45,276 nt of DNA from a virus. A program made the position numbers and the translations under genes. Below are positions 29,330-45,276 of this stretch, piece by piece. Position 1 is the first letter of the stretch. Each line of letters begins with the position of its first letter. A model generated the notes under the pieces. The model saw only the letters and a program-made list of their open reading frames with translations, searched no databases and was not told the DNA's origin. The stretch spans positions 1 to 45,276 of the IMG/VR virus record IMGVR_UViG_3300034684_000064; one strand, 5' to 3'.

Positions 29330-30580
29330 TTAAATATAATCGAAAGATTTGATAAGGATATACAAAATGAAGATGAGAACAAATGATGCATTTGTATTCT
29401 CTCTTGAAGACAAATCACACTCTTCCACGAACTTAAGTACAGATCGTTTAATAGTAAGTACTCCACTGTCGGATATTCGTGAACTAGAATACATATTCAT
29501 AGCTTTAATTACGATAGCTTGTTTGGAATTCATATTCACGTTATCCATGACACATGCACGATACGTAACTCTAAGGATCTCTTGTACGATCTTACCTAAT
29601 CCGACGTAGTAGGGAGTATCGTTCTTTGGGGTTTTGATTGTGTCAAATGTACCAGAATCTACCTGCTCTGCAGATTTTTCAGCTACCATGATCAAGAACT
29701 TTTTCATAGCCTCAGGATGAACATATCTGAACTTATTACAAAGAACATTCACAAGTTCCATATCTATAAGTCTAGAAGAATTCTGGATCATAGCTCGCAT
29801 ACTTTGCTCCATGGTATCTAACGTATCGGTTTGCGACACTATGATCTTTTGTCCATCAAGACTATCTACCGACGAGTATGTGGAGATCTTATTTCCTTCT
29901 TCAAAGTTGTCGTAGTACAATTGAGTAACTCGGATCAATAATTTTTTCAATCCAGTCTGAGTGTCGCTTATGACACGACATACTCTGTAGTCAGGAGAAT
30001 AATCTCTGAGTGCTTCGTAGTAGTTAGAATCCGGTTGACTCATACGTACTGCACGACTAGTTATCAAGTTCTTCCATGTTTTAGCTGCCACAAGATCAAA
30101 CTTATTAGAAAGCCCATCTATAGTTGCTTGCATGACCTCTCGGTTAGCATGAAACTCATATGCTTGATGTACGTAAGAAGTAAAGAACTTATATTGTAAC
30201 AACTTGAACAAATTGACTATACCCAAAGTTACAGTATCCGAAGGAAGTTTGGAACTGTGTATCCTGTGAGCGATATATACTACCAGGTGGTTATACGGAT
30301 CATTAAGTACTTTCCAACTAGGATCAATATAATCACACGTACGTATAGCCCGACTTATATCTTTAGGATCTACTTGAAAAATATCATACATGTTCTGATA
30401 ATCGGATTTAACAAAAAATGCTTTCTCAACCCCCAGTAGTGGGGAGTTGAATACTGCTCCATGGTTTTGTTTCGTTTCAAATGTGACACACAGCACATTG
30501 AGCTTAGAAATGAGCTCAATAGTTACTGGCTGATTAAGTTCAGGTATATCTGAGAATGCATATTTTAATTGACTAGACAT
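29330..30580 (-). CDS. Unknown protein with hydrophobic C-terminal tail, 416 aa
   Basis: I do not recognise it. Mostly helical across residues ~90-400. The last ~20 residues are strongly hydrophobic (SFVLIFILYILIKSFDYI), which could anchor the protein in a membrane or pack inside a virion. Start ATG 30580 follows AGGAGG; a TTG-started extension would include that site. An early-type element (ATTATAT variant, 30653-30660) is ~70 nt upstream. A structural or a membrane-associated early role are both possible. Confidence 0.82.
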   Translation of the reverse strand: MSSQLKYAFSDIPELNQPVTIELISKLNVLCVTFETKQNHGAVFNSPLLGVEKAFFVKSDYQNMYDIFQVDPKDISRAIRTCDYIDPSWKVLNDPYNHLVVYIAHRIHSSKLPSDTVTLGIVNLFKLLQYKFFTSYVHQAYEFHANREVMQATIDGLSNKFDLVAAKTWKNLITSRAVRMSQPDSNYYEALRDYSPDYRVCRVISDTQTGLKKLLIRVTQLYYDNFEEGNKISTYSSVDSLDGQKIIVSQTDTLDTMEQSMRAMIQNSSRLIDMELVNVLCNKFRYVHPEAMKKFLIMVAEKSAEQVDSGTFDTIKTPKNDTPYYVGLGKIVQEILRVTYRACVMDNVNMNSKQAIVIKAMNMYSSSRISDSGVLTIKRSVLKFVEECDLSSRENTNASFVLIFILYILIKSFDYI

Positions 30581-30652
30581 CAAAGTCCTCCTAATTAGCG
30601 ACTTGCTCATAGCATAACACTATACATATTTAAGACAGATTTAGTTATATGA

Positions 30653-30660
30653 ATAATATA
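30653..30660 (-). promoter_or_regulatory. Early-type promoter, variant TATATTAT
   Basis: Minus strand reads ACAAATATATTATTCATAT, one base from TATATTAC; the same variant occurs at 43765-43772. Confidence 0.45.
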
Positions 30661-31371
30661 TTTGTATTGTGGTAAAAACTTCACATAAATGTGATAAAAA
30701 ATAATTTGCACAATATACTATACAGGGACCAACTCTTCTCCAATGGGGAAGGGTAGGGATGGGGCACTATGGAACTGTATATATATAAAGAGAAATACAT
30801 AAGTAGAGGATAGATACACTGAGAGAGAAGTGTATCTATACGTGAGATGTGAGTACAACACATACATACAGGTAAGTAGAGAAGAGTGAACGTAAGTGAA
30901 CGAGACTCTACGCATCTTGTCTTGATAGACAAGAACGAGAAGCATGTGTGTGTCGAGTGTAGGACACACACATGTGCTAGACTCCGTATCCTCCCCCCAT
31001 AGGGGGTAGAGAACAAGAAGACGAACACTCTCCCCCCAAGAGGAGAGTGTGACGTTGATAGTCTAAGAACACAGTAGAGGATCTATCGGATGGTACCGTA
31101 AGAACAAGGATATGGATCCTTCCTGATACGAACATGTCCCAAGAGGACATGGGATCTTCGAGCGAAATATGAACGATGTGTGGAAAAGGAACGAATACGA
31201 GAGATAAGACTAACTCCTCCATCAAGGAAGGAGTTAGTTAAAGTCAACACTCGTGTTACTACTAGATATACGACAAGGTAACTTTTGTTCTCTTCATAAG
31301 GGATCGATCGTTGGTTCTTAACAATCGATAGAGTATATGCAGATCACATCGAAACATCACTTATTTCCTTT
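30661..31371. other. Gene-free 0.7-kb region with serial hairpins, candidate large structured RNA
   Basis: No reading frame here has a ribosome site or normal composition. The plus strand is purine-rich (42 of 60 bases in 30841-30900), opposite to the flanking minus-strand genes, which suggests a plus-strand transcript. Successive stems: 30810-30839 (11 bp), 30915-30934 (7 bp), 30943-30974 (12 bp), 30994-31006 (5 bp, all C/G), 31025-31050 (9 bp), 31106-31121 (6 bp), 31133-31151 (7 bp), 31209-31238 (10 bp). Such density is unlike the single terminators elsewhere. It may be a large ornate RNA, a cluster of small RNAs, or a packaging/replication site. No tRNA is recognisable. No clear plus-strand promoter is seen. 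Confidence 0.5.
31209..31238. terminator. Hairpin at the right end of the structured region
   Basis: 10-bp arms ACTAACTCCT/AGGAGTTAGT. It could end a plus-strand transcript of the structured region or a minus-strand one from the adhesin gene. Confidence 0.35.
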
Positions 31372-32331
31372 TTAAAATTTAGTTATTCTTATTGAACCTG
31401 CTCCACCGGCTCCTCCACCATACATACGAGCTCCACCATTAGCTCTAATAATTCCATTATTTTCTATGACACTCTTATGATAAATATCAATACAGCCACC
31501 TCCAGATGAGCCGCCGCCACCAGATGAACCTGCACCACCATTTACACCATTACTTACAATCAATCCAGTGGAACCTAATATTAAATTTCCATGAACTATC
31601 AAAATTAATAATCCCCCTGTTCCTGACTGACCTGTGCTACCCTGACCAGTTCCACCTGAACCTGGATTACCTGCTCCACCACCTTGTGGATATCCACTCC
31701 CATGTCCATTATAAAAATATCCACCTCTACCACCATTTGCTTGTGCAACACTATATGTTGTTCCATTTCCTGATGCGTTTCTTGAACCGCCACCAGAACC
31801 ACCTGAAAACGATGTTCCTGCTGATCCAGCAGAACTACCACCAGTGGCTTTAGCTCCAGCTCCACCGCCGCCGCATGAAATTCCTCCTTGTGACATTTGA
31901 CCATTAGCACCAGCAGTGGTACCAGCTGCGCCACCATCTTTTAATATAAATGGAATATTATCAATAAAAATATTTGTTTCATTAAAATAAATTTTAAGTT
32001 GTCTATAATCAATTCCAACATATTTTCCAACAGCATGAGCTCCTCTTGCACCCATCGATAATGTTCCATTAATAATACAATCCCCAAGAATGTTGAGATA
32101 TAATCCTTTACACCGATGCGTAGGACGAACGAGATGTCCTTCGTTGATGGTGAAGTTGTTATACGTTCTAACTACAGGATCACCATCAACTACACTGACA
32201 AACTCATCATGATCAGATGACCCTGTTGATATAAAATCTCCTGTTGTAGAAGGAAACTCAAATGTTTGCTCTGCTGAAAAATGATAATAGTCTTTAGTAG
32301 TCTGAGCATTTATAGAATCGATCACTAACAT
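31372..32331 (-). CDS. Glycine-rich adhesin-like tail protein, 319 aa
   Basis: The N-terminal ~130 residues form a beta-rich head. Residues ~133-245 are a low-complexity region dominated by Gly, Ser, Ala and Asn (GGGGAGAK, GGSGGGSRN and similar), and a shorter Gly-rich stretch ends the protein (YGGGAGGAGSIRITKF). Tail-tip adhesins of the T2/S16 gp38 type use glycine-rich segments to build polyglycine helices that carry receptor-binding loops, so receptor recognition is a fair inference. Base composition is more AT-rich than its neighbours. Start ATG 32331 follows AAGGAG. It lies next to the gene-free structured region. Alternatives are a fibre tip or a host-type surface protein. Confidence 0.7.
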   Translation of the reverse strand: MLVIDSINAQTTKDYYHFSAEQTFEFPSTTGDFISTGSSDHDEFVSVVDGDPVVRTYNNFTINEGHLVRPTHRCKGLYLNILGDCIINGTLSMGARGAHAVGKYVGIDYRQLKIYFNETNIFIDNIPFILKDGGAAGTTAGANGQMSQGGISCGGGGAGAKATGGSSAGSAGTSFSGGSGGGSRNASGNGTTYSVAQANGGRGGYFYNGHGSGYPQGGGAGNPGSGGTGQGSTGQSGTGGLLILIVHGNLILGSTGLIVSNGVNGGAGSSGGGGSSGGGCIDIYHKSVIENNGIIRANGGARMYGGGAGGAGSIRITKF

Positions 32332-32425
32332 CAGTATTCTCCTTAAAGATCTAATTTACATATCATTTTGTGTGAAAAATAACCATTCTACTTCACAATA
32401 AAAAAAATAATCAACGATACTCAAA

Positions 32426-32457
32426 TAAGAGAGGACAGTTGATACTGTCCTCTCTTA
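32426..32457 (-). terminator. Hairpin terminator
   Basis: 14-bp perfect arms, loop TGAT, 1 nt from the stop of the metallopeptidase-like gene. Confidence 0.82.
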
Positions 32458-32458
32458 C

Positions 32459-33595
32459 TTAATTAGACAAACGTTCAATGATTTTTTCCGGATCTATTTT
32501 TTGAAGAATGATTTCCGGGGACACTGCACCTCCATAAGAGTGGTTGTCATTGAAGTCAAGTACTTGTTTAGCGTATTCTACTACAAGACCGATAACCCCT
32601 TCTGTAAGTTCTTCCGAATCGAAGTACATGAGTTCTGTTTCCAGATATTCCTGGAAGATCAGATATTCCGTGAAGCCGTTGTCCTCGAATGTCTTTTGTA
32701 TTTCAGGACTATACATTGTGAACTTATTTGCATTGTATCGGAGTCCACAAGGCATCTGATCCATCGAGTGAAAAACACCGGTACCAGTAGATCCTTCCCA
32801 GGAAATGCACTTCATCTTCTCACCGTAGAGCTTGTTCGCTACCTTGGTGATTGTTTCAGGAGTGAGTCTTTTGACTCTATTGCTGGGATACTTTTTGAAC
32901 GCCGAGTGCATGCGCTTTGCGTACTGTGAGGTTATTTCCGAAGTTCGCGTTTCGAGAAATCTTGAGATCTCGTCACCAAGCACCTCCTGCATATGGGCAT
33001 ATCCGAATTCATCTGCTTCCACTTCTGATGGAAGGTTGATGTATTCGTTGAAGCTGTCAATATTGGTTGCATCCGGGGCATCGCGTAACGCCCCGGAAAG
33101 TTCCACATTCCTTCCTTCCATAATGAATTCTTCAGATTGCGTCGTGTGACAACGCTCGTGCCCCATCGCAAATGAAAGAAAGGCTTTGACTGTGAGTTCA
33201 GTCAGTTTGCCGTCAGTTACTCGTTTCACTGCGGCGACGATAGACTCGAAGTAGTAATAGATATTACCACGAACAGTATGGCACAAATTTTTCAGTACCT
33301 TGTCGGTGCTTGGATCAGCGATGACATTATCCAGATTGACTACGGCTGTACCGTCGAAATTCTGTGCCATGTATCCGTAGTCTCCGATATTCTCGAGCGA
33401 GTCGACATCGGAAATTTCAGCATCGACGACCATGTCCAAGATGTCGTATGTTGTAAACAAATACTCGTTCGACTTCCGGTGCATTTGAAAATAGGACTTC
33501 ATCAGTTTTAAAGCTTCACCTTCGGAGATTTCGGTGGAGCTGATTTCTGCCAGACGCACCATTAAGCTTCCGAGATTAGGTCTTACTGTATTCAT
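32459..33595 (-). CDS. Predicted zinc metallopeptidase (HExxH), 378 aa
   Basis: Carries HERCH (H146-E147-H150), the HExxH zinc-binding pair, on a helix (SFAMGHERCHTT). About 43 residues later is the segment SEVEADEFGYA (E191/E193, D195), matching the third ligand of gluzincin-type enzymes. No signal peptide is present, so it would act in the cytosol. The family is not fixed. It has its own early promoter (33642-33649) and terminator, so it is an early single-gene unit. A protease acting on host proteins is a natural guess, not shown. Start ATG 33595 follows GGAG. Confidence 0.72.
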   Translation of the reverse strand: MNTVRPNLGSLMVRLAEISSTEISEGEALKLMKSYFQMHRKSNEYLFTTYDILDMVVDAEISDVDSLENIGDYGYMAQNFDGTAVVNLDNVIADPSTDKVLKNLCHTVRGNIYYYFESIVAAVKRVTDGKLTELTVKAFLSFAMGHERCHTTQSEEFIMEGRNVELSGALRDAPDATNIDSFNEYINLPSEVEADEFGYAHMQEVLGDEISRFLETRTSEITSQYAKRMHSAFKKYPSNRVKRLTPETITKVANKLYGEKMKCISWEGSTGTGVFHSMDQMPCGLRYNANKFTMYSPEIQKTFEDNGFTEYLIFQEYLETELMYFDSEELTEGVIGLVVEYAKQVLDFNDNHSYGGAVSPEIILQKIDPEKIIERLSN

Positions 33596-33641
33596 AGCGA
33601 TTCTCCATTGTTTGAATAGTTATGTTGTCCTGATCAAAGAA

Positions 33642-33649
33642 GTAATATA
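33642..33649 (-). promoter_or_regulatory. Early-type promoter TATATTAC
   Basis: Minus strand reads TTGAAGGATATATTACTTC, 46 nt before the metallopeptidase-like gene. GGATATATTAC is shared with other copies. Confidence 0.65.
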
Positions 33650-33706
33650 TCCTTCAAACAAATCGAGATACACCCATAAAAAATAATCTACACAGTTCAA
33701 TAAATA

Positions 33707-33738
33707 GAGAGTGAGAACCACTAAGGGTTCTCACTCTC
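33707..33738 (-). terminator. Hairpin terminator
   Basis: 13-bp perfect arms, 6-nt loop, 5 nt past the stop of the BspA-repeat gene. Confidence 0.82.
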
Positions 33739-33743
33739 AGGTA

Positions 33744-34295
33744 TTAGCTTACACGATACCATTTTGGAGGATCGTATTCCAGAGGAGATCCTACAAACAT
33801 AAAGGCCATATCCTCTACGTTACTCACGTCCCAGTCTGATATGTCGTTGTTGAATACTGCTTCATAGAACATGCACGACATATCGTTTACATTAGAGACA
33901 TTCCACTTGGAGATGTCTCCATTGAACTGGGATGCAGCGAACATGGCATACATGTCTACTGCGTTGCTGACATCCCAGTGTGATATGTCACCGTAGAACT
34001 GGGAGCTGTCGAACGTGTGGGACAGCTTCTTTACATTACTGACATCCCATTTAGAGAGGTCACCGTTGAATGACGACAATCTAAACATCCAGTTCATATT
34101 TACTACGTTACTGACATCCCATTTAGAGATGTCCAGCTCGACTGAAACCCCACAAAATAAGCCGGACATATCCGTTACTTGCGATACGTCGATGTGGTTA
34201 AGATCGGCGTTATCGCCAAGTCTGGCGATCTCAGTTCTCACAACGCTGTGTACGTTCTCGTTCGTAACAACGATGATGTCAGTTGATTTAGGCAT
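33744..34295 (-). CDS. BspA-type leucine-rich repeat protein (DUF285-like), 183 aa
   Basis: Five or more repeats of ~24 residues with the signature 'F-x-G-D-I-S-x-W-D-V-S-N-V-x-x-M-x-x-M-F' (for example FYGDISHWDVSNAVDMYAMF). These repeats form a curved solenoid and are best known from surface proteins of Bacteroides, Brachyspira, mycoplasmas and others. The N-terminal ~30 residues read IIVVTNENVHSVVRTEI and have no signal peptide. A longer paralogue sits at 43861-44553. It is early-promoter driven (34337-34344) and a single-gene unit. A binding or decoy role is likely; the partner is unknown. Start ATG 34295 follows AAGGAG. Confidence 0.85.
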   Translation of the reverse strand: MPKSTDIIVVTNENVHSVVRTEIARLGDNADLNHIDVSQVTDMSGLFCGVSVELDISKWDVSNVVNMNWMFRLSSFNGDLSKWDVSNVKKLSHTFDSSQFYGDISHWDVSNAVDMYAMFAASQFNGDISKWNVSNVNDMSCMFYEAVFNNDISDWDVSNVEDMAFMFVGSPLEYDPPKWYRVS

Positions 34296-34403: not shown

Positions 34404-34439
34404 GATAAGACTAGTGTCCATATGGACACTAGTCTTATC
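34404..34439 (-). terminator. Perfect 36-bp palindrome, terminator
   Basis: 18-bp arms with no spacer (centre 34421/34422), 6 nt past the terminase stop. Confidence 0.75.
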
Positions 34440-34445
34440 TTTATA

Positions 34446-36548
34446 TTAGAATCGTATTTTTGCAAATGCTTGCGTTATGTATTCTGGTGTGTGGATAGTC
34501 TTCTGTTGAGTAATGTCATCACTACGGATAGGAGTGATATCGTATTCCATAGGGGATATGAGTTCTTTGAGATCTGCAAGTTCTGATTCGTATGCTTTGA
34601 GTACTCCTGGGTGAGTGACTGTCCGTACTAACATATTGAGTTCAGCTATACGTTCTGTAACTTGAGAATACAGAACTTTATCTTTAGCTGTCAGTTTTGT
34701 ACCAGAATTATCTACTTCCGAACAAAAGATACTTTTATCCAGATTGTACATACGCAAATTCTTACCAAAATAAATGAACCAGCAAGCAAGAAGATAAGCT
34801 ATGACCAGATCGTCATGTCCTTTATTGCTGTGATCCATACGTCCACTTTTGACAGATAACGAACAAAATTCATTGATCAGTCCAGAATCCGATATCTTAG
34901 ATGCGTTCATGCTAAGAGCTTTGTTTAAAGTAACTTTATAAAGAACATCTCTAGAGTTACTTCCAGTTCCCGCAGTACTATACCCCAAGTACTTTTTGTT
35001 GGGACCTTGTTCTAAGTTATCCCAAGTATCGAGATGACAGAAAGGTTCTTCTTGGATGTTCTGAAATACTTGGTTATATATTCGAGTAAATGGGTTGATA
35101 CCATTTTTTCTTAAGATTTCACAGATCAGACCCACGATCATACTGGCAGTACTCTTTCTTTCAGGAACGAGTATTACTTTAGGATGATCTACCAGATACT
35201 TTCCAAGAAATCTTGCAAACAGTATCAGGTCAGATTCGTTACATTTTGTAGTAGCTATAACGTCCATGTTCTTCGGATCGAGAAATACTAACGATGTAAA
35301 GTCTTTACCTACGTTGTCGGATGTGTCAAGCCCTGCTATGATAACTCTGTTAGGATCTTTGAATACTTTGTCAGGATGTTCGTACCACCGGAACATGTAC
35401 CCAGATTCAAAAGTAATCTGGACAGGTTCTTTCTCTGAAGCTTTTATTTTGTCTAAAATAGTACGATCTATAGCAGAACTATCCGTACCTGCTTGTCGTA
35501 AGTTCAAATAATCGCGTGCTATGTCTTCAGGAGTACCGCCTGTACGTACTGAAGTTTCTCTAAACCATTTGTGGGTGTAACCTAACTGCAAGTATGAAAA
35601 TACTGCGTACACCATTTTTCTAGTTGAATGTTTATCCACAATAGCATGGAATTCATCGTAATCTTTACAATCGTATAATTTTTCCGAAAAAGGTAATGCT
35701 TCACTTATCAACTTAAGAGCAAATTGACATTCTTCAGTATCAAGGTTACCTGCAGTTGAAGTTATAATGTTCGTGTGGGGTAATCCGTTGTCTTTAGCGG
35801 ACTCTCGTGCTGCGTTAGTTGCAGAGGTGGCAGCAGGATAAGTAATGTAATTGTATTTGAAAAATTCGAGTTCGTCCCAGTGTAAAAAAGGAGAAGACAA
35901 ACCACGACCTAAGTTGTTGGCCGAAAAAGGATCGTTACTTTTAGTTTGTGTACTGTATTTATTTTCAAGTGCACTGTAGGTAAGTCCTTCCTTATTGTCT
36001 GTATCTGAACTAGAAGAAAACAGTAAAAACTGAGGAAGAGCTTTTTTGATCGCACGAAGACGATCAACCATTTCTTGAACAAGAGCGGTATCTTTAGTCA
36101 GTAAAATGGTTTTAAAGTTACATGCTAAAAAATACATCACGTAAGCTACGATAGCTTGTGATGATACAGACTTACCAGTCTGACGAGGCATGACCAGATA
36201 AAAATCTACATTGGCTAGGAAACAATAAATGAGTGCCAAGTTGCCGCGATTAAATTTGAATGGTATCGGTCGACCACCTTGGATAGGTATCCGAACAATT
36301 TCTCGAAAGAAATACCAAGGATTGATCTTTATCTCGTACGCTATACGTTCAGCAAGTTCTTTAGACGGATCTTTAAGGTTGTGCACGTCGAGACCTATGA
36401 GATCTTTTTGCGTAGTCACAAGCATGAACTTATTGTTTCGAACTCCGAGTTTTTCAAGAACTCGGGATAACCTAAATGCTGAAACATTTGTACTTAAAGT
36501 ATCAAAGTATACTTTTTCTTTTTCATAATCACTTTCAAACAAAATCAC
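34446..36548 (-). CDS. Large terminase subunit (DNA packaging ATPase/nuclease)
   Basis: 700 aa. Cuts concatemeric phage DNA and pumps it into proheads. Walker A is MPRQTGKS (about residue 120), Walker B is FLHWDE (about residue 225), and a TSTAGN segment (~275) is the coupling motif. The C-terminal RNase H nuclease shows IAGLDTSD (~410), VPERK (~470) and GHDDLVIAYLL (~610). The usual start ATG 36569 has no ribosome site; GTG 36548 follows AGGAG with 7-nt spacing and is preferred. The longer protein is possible. It is upstream of no other gene on its transcript, but the head protease genes lie just beyond a terminator. Confidence 0.9.
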   Translation of the reverse strand: MILFESDYEKEKVYFDTLSTNVSAFRLSRVLEKLGVRNNKFMLVTTQKDLIGLDVHNLKDPSKELAERIAYEIKINPWYFFREIVRIPIQGGRPIPFKFNRGNLALIYCFLANVDFYLVMPRQTGKSVSSQAIVAYVMYFLACNFKTILLTKDTALVQEMVDRLRAIKKALPQFLLFSSSSDTDNKEGLTYSALENKYSTQTKSNDPFSANNLGRGLSSPFLHWDELEFFKYNYITYPAATSATNAARESAKDNGLPHTNIITSTAGNLDTEECQFALKLISEALPFSEKLYDCKDYDEFHAIVDKHSTRKMVYAVFSYLQLGYTHKWFRETSVRTGGTPEDIARDYLNLRQAGTDSSAIDRTILDKIKASEKEPVQITFESGYMFRWYEHPDKVFKDPNRVIIAGLDTSDNVGKDFTSLVFLDPKNMDVIATTKCNESDLILFARFLGKYLVDHPKVILVPERKSTASMIVGLICEILRKNGINPFTRIYNQVFQNIQEEPFCHLDTWDNLEQGPNKKYLGYSTAGTGSNSRDVLYKVTLNKALSMNASKISDSGLINEFCSLSVKSGRMDHSNKGHDDLVIAYLLACWFIYFGKNLRMYNLDKSIFCSEVDNSGTKLTAKDKVLYSQVTERIAELNMLVRTVTHPGVLKAYESELADLKELISPMEYDITPIRSDDITQQKTIHTPEYITQAFAKIRF

Positions 36549-36583
36549 ATCGGATCTCCTAGTAAACATAGGGTATACAATTT

Positions 36584-36608
36584 GGAGAGGGGCAAATTGC
36601 CCCTCTCC
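36584..36608 (-). terminator. Hairpin terminator
   Basis: 12-bp perfect arms, 1-nt spacer, beginning right at the 20-bp element (36606-36625). Confidence 0.8.
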
Positions 36609-36625
36609 AGATAGACTCTACTGAT
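36606..36625 (-). repeat. 20-bp element repeated at 14210-14229
   Basis: Minus strand ATCAGTAGAGTCTATCTGGA, placed between the stop of the ClpP-like paralogue and its terminator. Confidence 0.8.
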
Positions 36626-36635
36626 GACCATTAAA

Positions 36636-37361
36636 CTACACTTTTTCAGTACTATGTCCAATGAAGGAAAAGATCTTTTGTGAAGTCAAAAGATCTTCTA
36701 ATTCTTCTTGTGAGATAAATCCCAATTCCACAAATCGTTGATACAGAACACGGAAGTACTGTGTATACGACGGCATGGCGTCCGTGATTCCTCTACACCC
36801 TTCTACAACGATGACCGAAAATTCCGATCTGTGCCGTTCGTGTCCGTATGCCCAGAGTATGGATTCTTCAGAAGAACACATTCCATCTGCGTGAGTTACG
36901 ACTTTTCCTCTACAAGTTTCGACTGCATGAAGCATAGGCCCAAGGTTGTACATATCAACAAGTCCAGATGCTCCAGATCCAGTTCCTAGATAGAAATGAC
37001 ATTCTTCATCCGATTTGAGTTTCAGAAGATTGGACATGAAGATGTTCTGAAAATCGCACTTGCTCCAACTTATATCGTGAGCTATGTATATACGGATGAT
37101 CTTGTCTTCTCGAAAACAAAAGAACTTCTGGGGGTTCGACTGCATCGCTCTTGATGCATTAAACTGATTTATCATATTGATTTGTTCAATATGACTTCGA
37201 TTAATGGACCCTGGTCCAAATACATCTTCTTCACTTAATTGGATGTGTGATTGCAGATCCGGTATTTTGAATTTTTCTGTACCTGCTACAATATCTTTAT
37301 CTTCAAGATCAGAATTCACATCTGGAACGTTGTCGAAATCGAGAAATGGGAAATAACTCAT
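36636..37361 (-). CDS. ClpP-like protein with degenerate active site, 241 aa
   Basis: It aligns with the next gene without gaps around the catalytic core: GKVVTHADGMCSSEESILWAYGHE (in part) against GTVTTVATSICASAGSLIWSSGHI. Ser164 keeps the nucleophile position, but the catalytic His is Glu (E187 where the neighbour has H160), the oxyanion Gly-Gly is lost and the C-terminal Asp region is not conserved. It also carries an extra ~50 N-terminal residues. It is probably a pseudo-protease that joins the active ring, as ClpR does in plastids, or a scaffold. It follows the active gene by 2 nt and ends at a terminator. Start ATG 37361 follows GGAG. Confidence 0.75.
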   Translation of the reverse strand: MSYFPFLDFDNVPDVNSDLEDKDIVAGTEKFKIPDLQSHIQLSEEDVFGPGSINRSHIEQINMINQFNASRAMQSNPQKFFCFREDKIIRIYIAHDISWSKCDFQNIFMSNLLKLKSDEECHFYLGTGSGASGLVDMYNLGPMLHAVETCRGKVVTHADGMCSSEESILWAYGHERHRSEFSVIVVEGCRGITDAMPSYTQYFRVLYQRFVELGFISQEELEDLLTSQKIFSFIGHSTEKV

Positions 37362-37363
37362 AT

Positions 37364-38068
37364 TTATTTCTCCCCAGAAGCGATGTGGTTAGCGATACGC
37401 TCCATCATTTTCTTTGCATCTATCCATACACATTTGTCGGGATCTTTACATATAAGGTCGACTTCTGCTTCGGTTATATGCCCTTTGTTTTTAGCAAGAT
37501 CCAGCAATACTTCTTGTACATATTTAACCTGAACATTAGCTGAATCTCGGATACGTACCGAGTTTCCTACCGACATCTGACTACTCATATGGTACATGAA
37601 CTGTGCAGTAGGATGCGCTTTGCAGATATGTCCGGAACTCCAGATCAAAGATCCTGCAGATGCACAGATAGAAGTTGCTACCGTGGTTACTGTTCCTTTG
37701 CATCTATAGATAGAACTGGCTATAAATGTAGCAGAACACACATATCCTCCAGGAGACGATATATTTAAGATCATATCGTCTCCTTCCTGCATCCGGTTGA
37801 TTATTTCCACTAGTCCGAAATACTCAGTAGGAGAAGTGATAGTCGAGTTGATAAGTGCGGTATACTCTTTAGTGCCGTTGTCTCTAGGAACAACAAATAT
37901 AGGACAATATGGCAGCTTCATTTCTGTCGGATTGTAGAGTCCGTATACGTCGACTCCCTCTGGACTTGGCGGAGAACTTGGGATCTCATCATTGCTAAGG
38001 TGAGACGTGTCCAAGGTTTCTAGTGCGGGTATACTCGCTTCGAGTTTCATAAGTCTTTTAGAGAACAT
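37364..38068 (-). CDS. ClpP-like serine protease, probable head maturation protease
   Basis: 234 aa. Clp-family fold: LNISSPGGYV (oxyanion Gly-Gly, ~102-110), ICASAGSLIW with Ser137 as nucleophile, and AQFMYHMSSQM with His160. The acid residue is less certain, but DPDKCVWIDA (~209-218) matches the ClpP Asp region. Phages often use ClpP-like (S14) proteases to mature the capsid. It lies between the gp21-type prohead protease and the pseudo-ClpP and follows them in one operon. Start ATG 38068 follows GGGAGAAG. Confidence 0.82.
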   Translation of the reverse strand: MFSKRLMKLEASIPALETLDTSHLSNDEIPSSPPSPEGVDVYGLYNPTEMKLPYCPIFVVPRDNGTKEYTALINSTITSPTEYFGLVEIINRMQEGDDMILNISSPGGYVCSATFIASSIYRCKGTVTTVATSICASAGSLIWSSGHICKAHPTAQFMYHMSSQMSVGNSVRIRDSANVQVKYVQEVLLDLAKNKGHITEAEVDLICKDPDKCVWIDAKKMMERIANHIASGEK

Positions 38069-38080
38069 ATGAGCTTCTCC

Positions 38081-38884
38081 CTAGTTTTGCTTTAAAAAAG
38101 CATGAACTATACTTTTCTTTCTTCCTTCCGAGAGGTAGTTGGTTGTTCCTGGGATATAATTCTCCAAAGTACAACCATTAACCTGTGCATGTTTTAAATC
38201 AAACAGTTTGCACATTTCTTCTGAAGAGAAATTTTCTAATCCTGCTACTCTTAATTGTTCTTGTTTATATATTTCTTCAACAGTGATGGGTCTTGAAAAA
38301 TCTTCATGCCCCACGTACCACTTGGAAGCTTCAGCATATCCCGGCATAGTGACATAGTCAAAGGTCACAAGACGCTTGACTATACGATATTCGTATTCTC
38401 TTGTACTCTTATTTGGATCAGGTACCATAAGAGATCTGAGAGAAAATGTCGTATTTTCGTAAGGGTTAAGTATAGATTCTTCCAAGTATTTGCCATATAC
38501 TCCAGTAGGACGGATTTCAGCAAATAAGATAACTCCACGATCAGTCGCTTTTCCAGTCCATACTCTACGGATGTGATGAGATCTACGATCTTCAGATACT
38601 TCAACAAGTCTTTCCAAAGATACGTCTGACGAAGGATGCCCATGTTCTCCATAAAGATTGCCCTGAGTAAGCATCATATTGAACACAGTATTCGGATCGT
38701 TTATCTGCTGAACTATAGATTCAATATCGTAAAACGCCCGATTTCTGGAAGGAGCTCCAAGAAGAGCGATAGGCATCTCGTAATACCCGTAGTCGTTCAA
38801 TTTCGGAACTTTGAGTTTCTGTCCCTGGAACTGATCGAGCACCGACACATTGAAATGTAAATTATTCGGAAGTCTAGTTTCCAT
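38081..38884 (-). CDS. Prohead protease, T4 gp21 / phiKZ gp175-like
   Basis: 267 aa. Cleaves capsid and inner head proteins during prohead maturation. Motifs of the family: GEHGHP (catalytic His81 or His83), then SHHIRRVW, and TTFSLRSL (Ser148 with the following Arg), in the right order and spacing; the 'SRG' of T4 gp21 reads 'SLR' here. It precedes two ClpP-like genes in the same operon and is near the terminase. Start ATG 38884 follows GGGGATA. The gene ends 12 nt before the ClpP-like start. Confidence 0.82.
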   Translation of the reverse strand: METRLPNNLHFNVSVLDQFQGQKLKVPKLNDYGYYEMPIALLGAPSRNRAFYDIESIVQQINDPNTVFNMMLTQGNLYGEHGHPSSDVSLERLVEVSEDRRSHHIRRVWTGKATDRGVILFAEIRPTGVYGKYLEESILNPYENTTFSLRSLMVPDPNKSTREYEYRIVKRLVTFDYVTMPGYAEASKWYVGHEDFSRPITVEEIYKQEQLRVAGLENFSSEEMCKLFDLKHAQVNGCTLENYIPGTTNYLSEGRKKSIVHAFLKQN

Positions 38885-38910
38885 GAAAATATCCCCTTTT
38901 TAAGTTTACA

Positions 38911-39591
38911 CTATCGTCTCAACATATCTTCGACACGACTTCTCTCAGTCGAAGGATTGACGATAGCTGAATTAAAGTTGTCTTGCATATACGAACCCAC
39001 AAGTTTAGCAGTAGTACTGTCCGTAGCATATGCAGTATCTCTTAAAGATAAAAACACCGCAGGAGCTGTCATTGATGTGAGTCTGTAAGGTTTAGAAAGA
39101 TCTTTAGGATCTCTATACAAATGTGCATACAGGATCTCAAAAATGTTTTTAGGAACTCTAAGGTTAATACCACATACCTTTTGGGCATGATCGAATAACT
39201 TTGGGATATCCCAGTAACGTATAAACTTAGGTAAGTTACCGTTAGCTAAAAATTCAACAAACATGACGTATACTAAGTTTGCTTTTTGAACTATAGTTTT
39301 TGATTGCATGAAAACATCTCCTTTATGCAATTCCAAAACTGTATAGTCTACGTCGTCTTTGTTTTCTTTGTAGATTTTTGATGGATGTATTTGTATAGTT
39401 GTAGGAAGTATAAGTCCTATCTCTTCGTTATCGTTCACTATGATCTCGAATACACCAAGTACTTCCACATGACTTGTGATTTTAAGAACTCCTTGTGCGG
39501 AGTATCTTTCAGGAACATATATTTTAGCTTTTTCACCAGTAAAAATATATGAATTATTGACTGTTTTTAAATACTTTCCTAGTTTCCCCAT
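38911..39591 (-). CDS. Unknown, probably virion or assembly protein, 226 aa
   Basis: I do not recognise it. A basic beta-rich N-terminal domain (~1-110) is followed by a helical domain; a final ~40 residues are disordered and polar. Start ATG 39591 follows AAGGAGG. It leads the head-protease operon (26-nt gap to the gp21-type gene), so a role in head assembly is possible from position only. A TATGCC stretch lies ~30 nt upstream and could be a promoter. Confidence 0.8.
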   Translation of the reverse strand: MGKLGKYLKTVNNSYIFTGEKAKIYVPERYSAQGVLKITSHVEVLGVFEIIVNDNEEIGLILPTTIQIHPSKIYKENKDDVDYTVLELHKGDVFMQSKTIVQKANLVYVMFVEFLANGNLPKFIRYWDIPKLFDHAQKVCGINLRVPKNIFEILYAHLYRDPKDLSKPYRLTSMTAPAVFLSLRDTAYATDSTTAKLVGSYMQDNFNSAIVNPSTERSRVEDMLRR

Positions 39592-39623
39592 GGAAACCTC
39601 CTTTATACGTGGTTTGGCATAGA

Positions 39624-39656
39624 ATAAGATAGCTCCCTAAAAAGGAGCTATCTTAT
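39624..39656 (-). terminator. Hairpin terminator
   Basis: 13-bp perfect arms, 7-nt loop, 2 nt past the stop of the 423-aa gene. Confidence 0.82.
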
Positions 39657-39657
39657 C

Positions 39658-40929
39658 TTAAAGACTCATTATCTTGAGAAAAACAAATTGATTATCTTTA
39701 TAGTCTTTAACACAATCAACATGTCTGCACTTTAATTTGTCAGGGTACAGTTGAAGTTGTGTCTTTTCTTCAGTGTATACATCAAGGTTAGTCATTGTAG
39801 GATAACTGTAAACCGCGTTTCTAGAAAGATATTCTATTTGAGTGTAATCCATGAATGACTGACTAGTTAGATCGTGTGGGATGTAGTCCGGGTATTGAGT
39901 AAACTTTACATTTCCAGCAAAAGAAACTCCATATTTTGTATCTATCCAAAGATCTTCGGAATTTATGAGAACTAAGAATGCTCCATAATGATCTTTAGAA
40001 GAAAGATGTTCTTTGACATAGGTTTCTTCTGAAATGGGAGTTTCTATTAAATGAGTATTGTGTTTGTAATTGTCTTTGGCATAAGCACTCTTTGCTAACG
40101 ACATACGGATACGTAACTGTGCAAGATTAATTAAAAGACTATTTTCAGACTTTACCTTCACTGAATTTGGTAGAAATAAAGAATGCGCCATCACAATACA
40201 TGCAGTTTTACCATGCAGGTCTTTTCCATCAGGAAGTGTGATAGTTAAAAATACATCAGGACACGGTTCGTTGTTTTGGTTATGATAACGTAATTTACAC
40301 TCGGATAAAGGAACTATTTCCATACCACCAAGAAGTTCGAAATCCATAAGAAGAAGATTCGGATGTGTCGTATGTGTAGTGCACCTTAGGAAATTCATAC
40401 CTTCAGGAACAAAATATTCTCGTTTACCCGTTTTTTCATTAGGACGTATGATAGGTCGAGATACAAGTCCATTCACTGAAAGAAGAGAATTTTCTAATTT
40501 TATAGGACAATCGTTTCCTGTTTTAGTTATAACTAGATCTGGTAAATGATCGATAAAGGTTTTGACATCTCTTCTGTCAGGTATATCTTTATCTGTGTAC
40601 TCTATCAAAAAATCATTACTTGATAAAGGACTTACTGTACGTAAAACCTTTTTAGGAGAGTCCAGATCCGGCATATGTATACGATACGCTTCGAGTTCTA
40701 TGTCAGTCAACGTATCTCGAAACGTATCCCAAGTTTCAAATCTAGAAATAGGTGTTTCTAAAAACATATGTCCAAGGTCTAAAAAGTATGTAAGATCCTC
40801 ATTTTGGATTTTTACTATGTATTTCGTGTTATTACTTTCAATACTACTCATGTGCTCCCAAGGACTATTTCCTAATGCAAATTCTTCCAATACTGTACGA
40901 GTTTTGCGATAGAGCTTTTCGATGATCAT
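39658..40929 (-). CDS. Unknown, probably structural protein, 423 aa
   Basis: I do not recognise it. It is a beta-rich protein with mixed helices and no transmembrane span; the C-terminus has a pair of Cys (CRHVDC). It does not resemble an RNA polymerase subunit. Start ATG 40929 follows GGAGAGG. It follows the ParB-fold gene by 11 nt in one transcript. Confidence 0.82.
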   Translation of the reverse strand: MIIEKLYRKTRTVLEEFALGNSPWEHMSSIESNNTKYIVKIQNEDLTYFLDLGHMFLETPISRFETWDTFRDTLTDIELEAYRIHMPDLDSPKKVLRTVSPLSSNDFLIEYTDKDIPDRRDVKTFIDHLPDLVITKTGNDCPIKLENSLLSVNGLVSRPIIRPNEKTGKREYFVPEGMNFLRCTTHTTHPNLLLMDFELLGGMEIVPLSECKLRYHNQNNEPCPDVFLTITLPDGKDLHGKTACIVMAHSLFLPNSVKVKSENSLLINLAQLRIRMSLAKSAYAKDNYKHNTHLIETPISEETYVKEHLSSKDHYGAFLVLINSEDLWIDTKYGVSFAGNVKFTQYPDYIPHDLTSQSFMDYTQIEYLSRNAVYSYPTMTNLDVYTEEKTQLQLYPDKLKCRHVDCVKDYKDNQFVFLKIMSL

Positions 40930-40940
40930 GACCCCTCTCC

Positions 40941-41378
40941 TTACCTGAGTTTAGCCCAGGTAGAATACTGTTGTGTGAACTCCCGCATTTCAGATAAATT
41001 TAAGATATGCGATTGTATACAAGTCTGTTTGTCGATGTATGCATGTAGATATCTGTGTCTTCCATCCAGAATCTGGTAAGTTCCCTTAGGGGTTATATGA
41101 GTAATGATGGGAAACTGCACATAATCCGCTTTTAAGATCCGTGGAATATGTTTGGCAAGATCCGCCATGGTGATGTCACGGTACTCGATAGTCCCATCAG
41201 GAAACACCCCAACATGTCCCCATGCTTGTTCCACTGTAGTAGAGCTAAAATATTTTGGATCCACGTATATTTCAGAAGTGTCCTTACCTTCACAGAACTT
41301 GATAAGTTTTTCAGCAGGATAGAACTTTCCGTCAAAATAAAAGTAACCCTGGATGGGGTTTTCGTGATTCTGTATCAT
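40941..41378 (-). CDS. ParB/sulfiredoxin-fold protein, 145 aa
   Basis: Second ParB-like protein: a strand, then GTYQILDGRHRYLHAYI (residues 99-115, DGRHR at 105-109), as in the nucleotide-binding loop of the ParB N-domain. The N-terminal part (HVGVFPDGTIEY, ~55-66) is an extra small beta module resembling part of the 340-aa protein at 16122. No helix-turn-helix is present. Start ATG 41378 follows AAGGAG; the longer frame includes the site. A late-type motif lies at 41403-41410. Confidence 0.75.
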   Translation of the reverse strand: MIQNHENPIQGYFYFDGKFYPAEKLIKFCEGKDTSEIYVDPKYFSSTTVEQAWGHVGVFPDGTIEYRDITMADLAKHIPRILKADYVQFPIITHITPKGTYQILDGRHRYLHAYIDKQTCIQSHILNLSEMREFTQQYSTWAKLR

Positions 41379-41402
41379 GATAGCTTTCTCCTTAGCGTAA
41401 AT

Positions 41403-41410
41403 CATACTAT
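41403..41410 (-). promoter_or_regulatory. Late-type promoter motif ATAGTATG
   Basis: Minus strand reads TTTCAGATAGTATGATTT, 25 nt before the ParB-fold gene. Confidence 0.5.
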
Positions 41411-41448
41411 CTGAAAAATCTTAGACCAAGAAAATAAGAATGTTATTG

Positions 41449-41480
41449 AACTAGAGCTTGGGACATCCCAAGCTCTAGTT
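41449..41480 (-). terminator. Hairpin terminator
   Basis: 15-bp perfect arms, 2-nt spacer, about 50 nt past the stop of the 558-aa gene. Confidence 0.78.
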
Positions 41481-41529
41481 ATTGTTAGATCGATTTGGTT
41501 AATGAGAGAATATGGCTATCACGTATGCA

Positions 41530-43206
41530 TTAGGGATTCAGTTCAGTATTGTAACCAGTCGGACTTTGGTAGATATCGACAGGAACTCCGTATAAGATCA
41601 GGTATGTATCTCCGACTTTCTGCAAGAACTCTACAATAAAGCTAGATCCAACGTAACTTTCAGGAGTTTGTCGGTTGATATTCCAGAATTGGGTATACTC
41701 TTCCACAGGGATAGGTGAGGTAATGATCGTGTGAAGATCATTAATGTCCCTGATGGTAAAGTGTGTAGGAACAATAGCACTGATCTCTGTTTCTGGGTCG
41801 TATGGGGGTCTTGCAACCGTGTAGAATGCTTCGATGAATGCTTCCTTATTTTCGAACCTGGAAGTAGGAATAAAGAAGACTTTTAAGAGATGATCATAGT
41901 GGATAACAGGCCGACGTCTATTCGGTGCTTCCACACCGTATGCGTAGTTGTCCGTTTCTGAATCCTTCATGACCCACCTTTCGAATTCGTTGTAGTGTTT
42001 GAATTTTACAAAACACTTCTGACGATGTTCTACGGTAGCAGCCGTACCAAGTGCTTCGGTCAGATCGACAGAAAAAGTAATATCCTGGAATGTGTTAAAC
42101 ATCCCGGTACTCCATTCTGATAACGGAGTGACTTTATTTGTCAGATCATAGATCTTATCCCTTCTATCCGAATATCCAATGAATTTGAGATCATATTTAT
42201 TCTCAAGAGCATTCCAGATAGGAACAATGGATATTTTGAGTCCTGCTAACGACTCGTTGGCAAGTACAGTTACCCATCTTTCGATGGAAATAAATCTTTC
42301 TATACCATCCGTCTTTTGTAGAGGGGACGTTTGTTTTCTTCCAAGGAATTTCTTGATAAGTACTTTTTGTTTTTGTCCAGGGAATATAGGGATGAACTCA
42401 TCCAACCCATAACAAAAACAGCTTTCATTATCTATAGAAAGACGTTCTTGATTTCCGTCAGAATACGACACTATCGGAGATATCACAAGTTCATCTGGTT
42501 GTTGTCTCTGATAGAGATAAAAATCATCTCCATCCATCTGGTTAGCGGTTGCAGTCATGCCAGTGATGATGGTGTTAGTATTCAATAAATCATTGAGAAA
42601 TACTGCACGTTTGACGAACAGTATAACAGACACCATAAGGATGCCTTCATTGTTGAAGACTTCGAGAACTATCTGTTCCCCATCTTGTAAAGTATGTAAA
42701 GTGTGACAATTAGTACAATACTTGATAGGACTTCCAGGAGATAGAGATGCTACAGGAACTCTCTCTCCTTTGATGTGATCACTGGCATCTACATAAGTCG
42801 ATATGTAGTCAACCGATCCGTCAAGATTCTTTCTGCTTAATCGGTATTCTGCAAGTGAAGATCCAAACAGTCGAAGTTTACCATCAATATGAAGTTGTGT
42901 TGGTTCCACTCTGTCGTCATAATAGAGCATGAACAGATCGTTACCATAAGACACAATACCGACTTCATTATCTATTTCGTTTTTTACAAGTCTAGTCGGT
43001 TCTAATGTCGTAGCAAATGTGATAGGATCAATGTATACCGCACAATACAACGAATAGTCATCGTCTCTATCTACTACGATTGCCCCTTCTGCTGGGATAA
43101 GTTTGGGCATATCCAGATGGGCTTCTCCATCGACAGCAGGATCGTAAATCTGATCTCGAAAACACGCATTCGGTCTTCTGTCTTTGAATAAAAATATAGA
43201 AGTCAT
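41530..43206 (-). CDS. Unknown, probably virion structural protein, 558 aa
   Basis: I do not recognise a family. Beta-rich throughout, many Asp and Tyr, one CxxC pair (YCTNCHT, about residue 170), no transmembrane or signal segment. Such long beta-rich late proteins are mostly tail or baseplate components. Start ATG 43206 follows GGAGAGC. A late-type motif precedes it (43240-43247). Confidence 0.8.
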   Translation of the reverse strand: MTSIFLFKDRRPNACFRDQIYDPAVDGEAHLDMPKLIPAEGAIVVDRDDDYSLYCAVYIDPITFATTLEPTRLVKNEIDNEVGIVSYGNDLFMLYYDDRVEPTQLHIDGKLRLFGSSLAEYRLSRKNLDGSVDYISTYVDASDHIKGERVPVASLSPGSPIKYCTNCHTLHTLQDGEQIVLEVFNNEGILMVSVILFVKRAVFLNDLLNTNTIITGMTATANQMDGDDFYLYQRQQPDELVISPIVSYSDGNQERLSIDNESCFCYGLDEFIPIFPGQKQKVLIKKFLGRKQTSPLQKTDGIERFISIERWVTVLANESLAGLKISIVPIWNALENKYDLKFIGYSDRRDKIYDLTNKVTPLSEWSTGMFNTFQDITFSVDLTEALGTAATVEHRQKCFVKFKHYNEFERWVMKDSETDNYAYGVEAPNRRRPVIHYDHLLKVFFIPTSRFENKEAFIEAFYTVARPPYDPETEISAIVPTHFTIRDINDLHTIITSPIPVEEYTQFWNINRQTPESYVGSSFIVEFLQKVGDTYLILYGVPVDIYQSPTGYNTELNP

Positions 43207-43239
43207 AGGGAGAGCTCTCCTTTTAGGTTACAGCTATAG

Positions 43240-43247
43240 CATACTAT
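43240..43247 (-). promoter_or_regulatory. Late-type promoter motif ATAGTATG
   Basis: Minus strand reads TTCCAGATAGTATGCTAT, 34 nt before the 558-aa gene. The flanks repeat those at 41403. Confidence 0.5.
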
Positions 43248-43296
43248 CTGGAAAATCTCAGTGTAAAAAAATAAGAAAAGTAGTTTGAAAGTTATA

Positions 43297-43330
43297 TGAC
43301 TAGAGCTCAGGGTATCCTGAGCTCTAGTCA
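43297..43330 (-). terminator. Hairpin terminator
   Basis: 15-bp perfect arms, loop GTAT, 3 nt past the stop of the 127-aa gene. Confidence 0.8.
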
Positions 43331-43333
43331 CTG

Positions 43334-43717
43334 TTATTCACGCGACCAATTTTCCTGTTGGTCGATGATGGTTAACAATTGGACACCAAACGGAACCATA
43401 ATTTTCGAGTAGGGTAAGGTTATGTGTAGCGCATCCTGGGTATTTTGACCGTTGCGAATTTGTTCGACCACGGTCTTAGGATCGACATCAGTGTATACTG
43501 CAATGTCGAGATAAGTTCCGTAGTCCACAATAGACGCACAGCCATTGTCAGCTCCATTACGATTACCACAGAAATACACGGGACGATTGTCCACTTGTAC
43601 ACCTTTGATTGGGGCCAGTTTCCAGTTAGCCATACGGGTGTTAGGATATCCGCCAAACTGCCAATTTTCGAACCAGAAGGGACGAGTACCAGTACGGAAA
43701 GCTTTAGGATCAAACAT
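43334..43717 (-). CDS. Unknown early protein, 127 aa
   Basis: I do not recognise it. Rich in aromatic and Gly residues at the N-terminus (FWFENWQFGGYPNTRMANW), Asn-rich in the middle, beta strands in the second half. Start ATG 43717 follows GGAGATAG. The longer frame begins inside the early promoter region (43765-43772) and is rejected. It is a single-gene early unit between two hairpins. Confidence 0.8.
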   Translation of the reverse strand: MFDPKAFRTGTRPFWFENWQFGGYPNTRMANWKLAPIKGVQVDNRPVYFCGNRNGADNGCASIVDYGTYLDIAVYTDVDPKTVVEQIRNGQNTQDALHITLPYSKIMVPFGVQLLTIIDQQENWSRE

Positions 43718-43764
43718 GTAACTATCTCCATGTTTAAAGTTCACGAAGGGATGATTCAAAAAAA

Positions 43765-43772
43765 ATAATATA
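43765..43772 (-). promoter_or_regulatory. Early-type promoter, variant TATATTAT
   Basis: Minus strand reads TTGAAGGATATATTATTTTT, 47 nt before ATG 43717. The upstream GAAGGATATATTA equals that at 33642. Confidence 0.6.
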
Positions 43773-43804
43773 TCCTTCAAATAAATCGAATGTCATATCT
43801 TGAT

Positions 43805-43843
43805 ATAAGAGAGTTCCTCCTTGACCGGGAGGAACTCTCTTAT
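43805..43843 (-). terminator. Hairpin terminator
   Basis: 16-bp perfect arms, 7-nt loop, about 17 nt past the stop of the second BspA-repeat gene. Confidence 0.8.
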
Positions 43844-43860
43844 CGTACATACTAACGTTT

Positions 43861-44553
43861 CTAGTTTCGTTTACTCCACAACGGAGGATGTTGTTCCATG
43901 GGTGATTTCTGGAACATCAGATTTGTATTTGTATCGAGACCTACATTCCAGCTGGAGAGATCTCCTTCAAACTCAGAACGCGAAAACATCCCATACATAT
44001 CTACCACGTTACTTACATTCCAAGTCGATATGTCTCCGTCGAAATCCGATTTTCGGAACATAAACGCCATATTCTCTACGTTACTTACGTCCCACTTCGA
44101 AATATCGCCATTGAAAGCCGACATGAGAAACATGCCGGACATATCTTTAACATTACTTACATTCCATTGTGATATGTCTCTGTCGAATTCAGATGCTTGG
44201 AACATAAACGCCATATTCTCAACCTTCCCCACATTCCATTTGGAAATGTTTCGGTTGAAGTCGGCCTTACAGAACATACCACCCATGTTTTTAACGTTAC
44301 TTACATCCCATTGGGATATGTCTCCGTTGAACCGAGAGTTCTCGAACATCCCATACATATCTACCACGTTACTTACATCCCACTTGGAGATGTTTCCACA
44401 AAAGTGGACGAATGCAAACAGATACGACATGTCAGTCACTTGACTGACGTCGATGTGGTTAAGGTCGGCTTCGTAGCCGTATTGGTTGATTTCCGACTTG
44501 ACAATTTGACGAATAGTGTCGTCAGTAACAATAATTTTGTGTCCCGTAGTCAC
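43861..44553 (-). CDS. BspA-type leucine-rich repeat protein (DUF285-like), 230 aa, GTG start
   Basis: About seven consecutive repeats of the 'F-x-x-D-I-S-x-W-x-V-S-N-V-x-x-M-x-x-M-F' type fill residues ~50-215. The N-terminus (TGHKIIVTDDTIRQIVKSEI, then ADLNHIDVSQVTDMS) matches the paralogue at 33744-34295, so they arose from one gene; this copy has about two more repeats. No signal peptide. It begins with GTG 44553 after AAGGAG. It has an early promoter (44594-44601) and its own terminator. A protein-binding role in infection is likely, partner unknown. Confidence 0.87.
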   Translation of the reverse strand: MTTGHKIIVTDDTIRQIVKSEINQYGYEADLNHIDVSQVTDMSYLFAFVHFCGNISKWDVSNVVDMYGMFENSRFNGDISQWDVSNVKNMGGMFCKADFNRNISKWNVGKVENMAFMFQASEFDRDISQWNVSNVKDMSGMFLMSAFNGDISKWDVSNVENMAFMFRKSDFDGDISTWNVSNVVDMYGMFSRSEFEGDLSSWNVGLDTNTNLMFQKSPMEQHPPLWSKRN

Positions 44554-44593
44554 GATGATTCTCCTTAAATGTTACAAGTATTCAACTCACAAT

Positions 44594-44601
44594 GTAATAT
44601 A
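44594..44601 (-). promoter_or_regulatory. Early-type promoter TATATTAC
   Basis: Minus strand reads TTTTAACACTATATTACATTG, 40 nt before the BspA-repeat gene. Confidence 0.6.
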
Positions 44602-44619
44602 GTGTTAAAATTTGGATGA

Positions 44620-44652
44620 GATAAGATGGACACACGAAGTGTCCATCTTATC
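44620..44652 (-). terminator. Hairpin terminator
   Basis: 14-bp perfect arms, 5-nt loop, 9 nt past the stop of the edge gene. Confidence 0.8.
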
Positions 44653-44661
44653 AGGCTATAT

Positions 44662-45276
44662 TTAGTAAGAGATACGTCCAGACGTTTGCATATCTTCCGG
44701 CATAATCATCTGAATGAATGCCTGAAGAAGTCTGTACTTTTCCGGATCGGGAACTACAATCTGAGCATAGTGAGGATAAACGTCAATATATGTCAGATCA
44801 AGTTTTTGCTGCATGACTATATCGAGAGCATGAATGTAGTCGTAGTCTTGGAACTGACTACGCATTCTATCAAGGTCAGCATCAACACTGATTCCCGAAA
44901 GAGTACCGTTGAGGATATCCCGGATAATCACGATAGAGTAGTTCGAAAGACACTTATGTGAATTCTCGATTACCACCTGCTCAGGTATTGTCGGCTGTTT
45001 ACCATAGAAGTACTCATGAAGAACCTCAAGTCTATCTACGATTTGTGCAGAATAGTACGGTTCAAGATACTTCGAGAGAACTTTAGGTACGGAGGTTTGG
45101 ATTTCAAATGGAGTTGCATCTAGATACTTTCCATCTTTGAAGATAAGCATATTCCCGACTGAAGTCACTTCAGAGTCGAACATGCCTCCAGCATGTACTA
45201 CGGACATGTCGGGGAAGTACAGAGGAACTTCTAGACTCGATCCGCCTTGGTTGTCTACGATGTGTCCGGAAATATC
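44662..45276 (-). CDS. Unknown protein, C-terminal part (starts outside the window)
   Basis: The frame stays open to the right window edge (at least 204 residues); the ATG at 45207 has no ribosome site, so the true start is beyond the window. I do not recognise it. The visible part has an N-terminal beta region with Gly and Ser, then helices (residues ~80-160) and a mixed end. No catalytic motif. It ends at a terminator before the second BspA unit. Confidence 0.75.
   Translation of the reverse strand, partial: DISGHIVDNQGGSSLEVPLYFPDMSVVHAGGMFDSEVTSVGNMLIFKDGKYLDATPFEIQTSVPKVLSKYLEPYYSAQIVDRLEVLHEYFYGKQPTIPEQVVIENSHKCLSNYSIVIIRDILNGTLSGISVDADLDRMRSQFQDYDYIHALDIVMQQKLDLTYIDVYPHYAQIVVPDPEKYRLLQAFIQMIMPEDMQTSGRISY

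Follow-up and report, generated by a model that had tools for sequence, protein, structure and literature searches.

What does a phage genome keep in a gap of several hundred nucleotides in which hairpin follows hairpin? This question is raised by a stretch of 45,276 nucleotides of viral DNA (hereafter called the window). Judged by its gene content (PhiKZ-family major capsid protein, DnaB-like helicase, DNA polymerase, large terminase TerL, and the phrog_2921 gene adjoining the hairpin region), the window is part of the genome of a phiKZ-like jumbo phage that has not been cultured and whose closest cultured relatives share only ~23-36% protein identity with it. Two IMG/VR contigs from sample 3300034683 represent the same species (99.94% identity to window positions 1-30289 and 99.75% to 34421-45276). 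As these contigs end either side of the hairpin region, the sequence of the gap, which we call copy A, is known from the window alone.

Hairpins of copy A

An earlier, sequence-only reading had pointed to this gap, and its position was confirmed: ~760 nt without a plausible gene extend from the phrog_2921 gene to a Gly-rich gene, with TerL ~3 kb away (Table 1). The same reading had described hairpins in series, and by folding these are real and exceed chance. Against shuffled sequence, positions 30701-31330 reach a z-score of -7.8 on the + strand and -7.2 on the - strand, and 30701-31340 (+) a z-score of -8.2, equalled by 0 of 20 shuffles. In copy A, 5 stems pair perfectly over 8 bp or more, as opposed to 0.15 +/- 0.36 (maximum 1) in dinucleotide shuffles. 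The 12-bp CATGTGTGTGTC stem singled out earlier is indeed present (H7), and so are the "at least eight stems", except that they were placed within ~430 nt, while in fact about 13 stems extend from ~30680 to 31340. The predicted shape is that of local hairpins in a row, long-range closure being weak at most. Plus-strand purine richness was found as well: purines make up 62% of positions 30761-31240, and such asymmetry occurs in only 0.05% of 480-nt windows. Counts of the repeated linker motifs GTAGAG and GAACGA are only about as high as those of the top k-mers in shuffled sequence.

It had also been stated that other gaps contain a single terminator. This is broadly true for the window phage, in which many other gaps fold well too, mostly with one terminator-like hairpin, but it does not extend to several related phages, some of whose gaps contain 4-5 hairpins. 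Within the window phage, only the copy A region and a second copy described below have five or six perfect stems clustered together.

Table 1. Position, strand and basis of assignment of features in and around the two hairpin-rich gaps (window coordinates unless marked L112)
Feature	Position	Strand	Basis
phrog_2921 gene, flanks copy A gap	29330-30610	-	
Copy A, whole intergenic gap with hairpin array	30611-31371	+ favoured as RNA strand	ORF list, fold z-scores, stem counts
AT-rich block common to copy B (TATATGAATAATATATTTGTATTGTGGTAA)	30641-30680		alignment with copy B, promoter matrix scan
ORFs of at least 60 aa in copy A gap	30681-31028, 30718-30969, 30977-31225	all -	ORF list
H2 hairpin and G-rich run GGGGAAGGGTAGGGATGGGG	30726-30764	+	sequence, alignment, folds
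H3 stem-loop, 11 bp; copy B identical and 2 bp longer	30810-30839	+	stem search, A/B alignment
H5 stem-loop GTAGAG/CTCTAC; few flanking bases in span	30873-30912	+	A/B alignment
H6 stem-loop, 8 bp, same sequence in copy B	30915-30934	+	A/B alignment
H7 stem-loop CATGTGTGTGTC/GACACACACATG, 12 bp, 8-nt loop	30943-30974	+	stem search, A/B alignment
H9 stem-loop, 9 bp	31025-31050	+	A/B alignment
H11 stem-loop CATGTCC/GGACATG	31133-31151	+	sequence and fold
H12 stem-loop ACTAACTCCT/AGGAGTTAGT, 10 bp	31209-31238	+	stem search
H13 stem-loop ATCGATCGTTG/AACAATCGAT, final hairpin of array	31302-31330	+	sequence and fold
Gly-rich gene, flanks copy A gap on the other side	31372-32331	-	
Copy B gap, 731 nt, gene-free	L112:2964-3694	-	

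A second copy and its comparison with the first

A search of the same phage's other contigs gave a match (E 7e-85) at G002:73284-73507, on a contig of 118 kb that belongs to the same species as the window. The gap which contains this second copy, copy B, has thyX (PF02511) on one side and, on the other, a 342-aa gene, after which comes an RNA-polymerase subunit gene (phrog_2962); the gap sits exactly where a leftward gene block switches to a rightward one. Copy B folds with a z-score of -8.7 and has 6 perfect stems of at least 8 bp, versus 0.21 in shuffles.

The two copies are near-identical from H3 to H8 and similar in the AT-rich block, with a core of ~250 nt, and they diverge elsewhere. Outside the core their sequences differ, but hairpins persist in both; at the position of H2, for example, copy B has a hairpin of different sequence and GGCAGGGCTGGGG. 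When the cores were aligned (two sequences only, 254 columns), all 56 of 56 stem pairs were kept, 53 being identical, 3 changed on both sides and 0 broken. The three both-sided changes all lie in H9, whose register between the copies was fixed by the flanking GGGGGTAGAGAAC. Most changes are in loops and linkers, at 37 of 142 unpaired columns versus 6 of 112 paired ones. The corresponding Fisher p-values (7e-6 with gap columns counted singly, 0.014 with substitutions only) lean towards structure, because the manual alignment was made with knowledge of the stems. Indels in the core measure 10, 1 and 2 nt; the 10-nt one is in the H5 loop and the 1-nt one beside H8.

The H7 arms are the same in both copies, and the 8-nt loop between them is reverse-complemented (GAGTGTAG in A, CTACACTT in B). 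A kept stem with a flipped loop (window 30943-30974, L112:3324-3355) looks like the trace of an inversion or of template switching at a short palindrome, and template-switch mutation at imperfect palindromes is known from yeast (PMC3820800). This process could flip a loop and keep the arms complementary without selection. As template switching at palindromes could also make paired changes, those seen between A and B are suggestive and not proof.

One may go further and assume that both copies are selfish or drifting sequence, that is a hairpin-rich, recently duplicated non-gene whose stems are maintained by template-switch mutation and not by selection. On one hand, a core so nearly identical points to recent copying or gene conversion, A and B differ in their 3' halves, and both the restriction to one lineage and the inverted H7 loop fit. 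On the other hand, intergenic space is scarce in phages, yet ~1.5 kb is retained here at two places; strong hairpins are formed even by the outer parts that have diverged, and ends of a mobile element are not visible in the A/B alignment. We regard this explanation as quite improbable. The earlier claim of a large structured noncoding element was strengthened by copy B with its conserved stems: since this partly rewritten copy keeps the paired bases intact, copy A is probably a new structured RNA, and a DNA hairpin element is less likely.

Copy B also bears on whether a protein gene might have been overlooked by mechanical calling. Three - strand ORFs of 82-115 aa do span copy A (Table 1). None of them has a credible protein family match (best E 0.027), a usable ribosome site was not seen, and none has a counterpart in copy B, across the core of which no ORF runs. 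The indels, which shift the frame, and the H7 loop inversion mean that there is no conserved reading frame between the copies. An overlooked gene is thus extremely unlikely. Coding is excluded as far as present data go, and the claim that the region contains no gene stands.

Strand, transcription and competing explanations

Unpaired bases of the + strand are 73% purine and 50% A in copy A (65% and 46% in copy B). The + strand also folds more stably than the - strand (-200 versus -183 kcal/mol in copy A, -210 versus -196 kcal/mol in copy B), with G-U pairs commoner on the + fold in both copies. By its purine-rich linkers and lower folding energy, and in copy A also by the extreme purine asymmetry, + is favoured as the RNA strand; promoters and terminators do not settle the matter.

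As to promoters, the TATATTAC motif has 17 upstream occurrences in the window and G002 versus 1 on the reverse strand; it is listed as a phiKZ promoter, with variants in related jumbo phages (PMC7058600). A rarer motif, CAGATAGTATG, is also found upstream of genes in the window and G002, and together the two form a promoter set for the window phage. A promoter matrix scan gave no clear TATATTAC-type promoter reading into the array on the + strand in copy A or B. The nearest variant, TATATTAT near 30660, is on the - strand and fits phrog_2921. The phrog_2921 promoter is thus probably located in the AT-rich block, where a + strand start may perhaps lie as well.

An intrinsic terminator was not seen on the + strand of the array, and the - strand has four terminator-like sites versus 0.3 expected. 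Such sites would suit the idea that the hairpins are cis-acting parts of transcripts, serving in A as tandem terminator and 3' UTR on the - strand, or in B as a structured leader, a long one, of thyX. The Gly-rich gene does lack the single terminator found after other genes, and the + direction in copy B leads into thyX. However, the U-tracts of these sites are interrupted by C and are themselves a consequence of the purine-rich + linkers, and no terminator is needed at copy B because its two flanking genes diverge. Moreover, one homologous core is unlikely to serve both as a 3' UTR in A and as a 5' leader in B. We find this explanation rather improbable.

It is also conceivable that the element acts as DNA, A and B being replication origins or strand-exchange sites, either with an AT-rich unwinding block beside extruded hairpins or with a G-rich transcript as R-loop primer. 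The R-loop primer at the ColE1 origin, RNA II, is a structured RNA of ~550 nt with a G-rich stretch, and copy A resembles it in size and in such a stretch, its run GGGGAAGGGTAGGGATGGGG being suited to an R-loop. Furthermore, the AT-rich block is common to both copies and located at one end, copy B is exactly between long divergent gene blocks, and the flipped H7 loop speaks for DNA-level events. Skew gives no support for an origin at A or B (among genes on the same strand, GC3 skew does not switch at either copy). Strand-asymmetric purine linkers are unexpected for a cruciform, copy A is not at a divergent switch, and iterons were not found in the copy A region. We consider a DNA-level role unlikely.

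The reading that we prefer, with a probability of about 0.5, is that A and B are paralogous loci, each encoding a long (~600-nt) structured noncoding RNA of serial stem-loops, read on the + strand. We infer that both copies are transcribed, that + is the strand used and that they function at the RNA level; one further point against an RNA is that in copy A its direction would be antisense to the flanking genes. Such an RNA would consist of stem-loops in series, with purine-rich, A-rich linkers between them. Its transcription might start in or near the AT-rich block (~30640-30680) and would proceed from H1 to H13. During infection, the row of exposed loops and purine linkers could then serve as a platform to which a protein or RNA binds, or as a decoy for it, and our guess is that a role of this kind in trans fits the modular turnover of hairpins. 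A more ambitious proposal, possible though doubtful, is that the two paralogues are noncoding phage RNAs of a new class, modular arrays of ~13 stem-loops whose hairpins are exchanged, rewritten or loop-flipped with the architecture kept, and which would act during infection as a multivalent decoy or scaffold in trans. The two diverged copies in one phage provide an internal comparison, in which stem pairing is kept and loops, linkers and flanking hairpins are free. Should they be transcribed, the group of phiKZ-like jumbo phages would gain a new class of RNA; otherwise, they would point to a DNA hairpin element common to two intergenic sites.

Distribution and comparison with known systems

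In relatives with 36-45% identity in TerL and 31-35% in phrog_2921, the two genes adjoin, and the syntenic gap in nine relatives contains short gaps or small genes and no comparable array. Compared with these nine, the window has an insertion between TerL and phrog_2921 (31372-34295), made up of a DUF285 gene, a 378-aa gene and the Gly-rich gene, plus the hairpin array. At L014:2035-2700 there is a relative of the DUF285 gene (56%/41% identity). Copy A gave no blastn match among 50,697 phages; a covariance model of the core (R1), run over 1.4 Mb from the nearest relatives and over another 36 records of jumbo phages, found A and B only; and an exact scan of viral contigs with three 18-19-mers matched only the copy B contig. 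Four unrelated matches of the H6 18-mer in bacterial genome contigs were taken as chance. Since relatives lack the array and the model and pattern searches gave no further member, the element is lineage-specific within the data at hand.

Other hairpin clusters were met on the way. In a relative, a gap of 746 nt without genes contains four perfect stems, each 11-18 bp long (L130:12192-12937, i.e. G005 72192-72937). This gap is unrelated in sequence to A and B, and its hairpin cluster (L130:12244-12630) was rejected as a homologue, the gap being similar but without sequence relation. In Klebsiella phage Eowyn and Serratia phage KpGz_1, four perfect hairpins cluster directly after the phrog_2921 homologue (L005:5120-5523, L004:5261-5521), in Eowyn within a ~400-nt gap. 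A related jumbo phage has serial perfect hairpins within ORFs of 186 and 138 aa (L018:631-1191 and L018:10914-11330; at corresponding positions on the other strand in L144), with 8-15 bp stems, 6-9 in a row; the 186-aa ORF has a ribosome site and a HEAGH metal-binding motif. Hairpin arrays inside coding sequence are unusual.

To our knowledge, phages have few large structured RNAs, whose functions are unknown. A homo-oligomeric RNA cage is characteristic of ROOL and GOLLD, which are often, though not obligatorily, located near a tRNA island. The window has no tRNA, and the 118-kb contig has a single tRNA-Leu, at a distance of ~40 kb from copy B. Copy A matched no Rfam model, either at the gathering threshold or at E up to 10, and the copy B contig matched only a tRNA, elsewhere. 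The suggestion of another ROOL/GOLLD-like RNA hence survives as an analogy only, given the lack of an Rfam match and of a nearby tRNA, and the local hairpins in series; A and B are not filed under any known family, and they are not ROOL or GOLLD. Like A and B, these RNAs are phage-encoded, gene-free and several hundred nt long, with extensive predicted structure and unknown function, but they have a covarying multi-junction fold with pseudoknots (PMC12286853), in contrast to the serial local hairpins predicted from sequence for A and B. The presence of two paralogues in one phage is another difference.

A hairpin-rich phage RNA of ~400 nt is the CBASS-activating cabRNA, which originates from the coding sequence of terminase genes (PMC10686824). 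Copy A is also hairpin-rich, but it is gene-free, and its position ~3 kb from TerL is only a weak parallel. The UTR-derived noncoding RNAs of phiKZ come from the 3' UTR of PHIKZ298 and the 5' UTR of p40; they have about two stem-loops and were reported as fragments of ~100 nt and ~180 nt besides a longer species of ~880 nt (PMC8545117). As in our reading of A and B, these are structured noncoding RNAs of a jumbo phage from the same broad group; the differences are that copy A carries ~13 hairpins in ~600 nt and has no sequence match in the phage collection.
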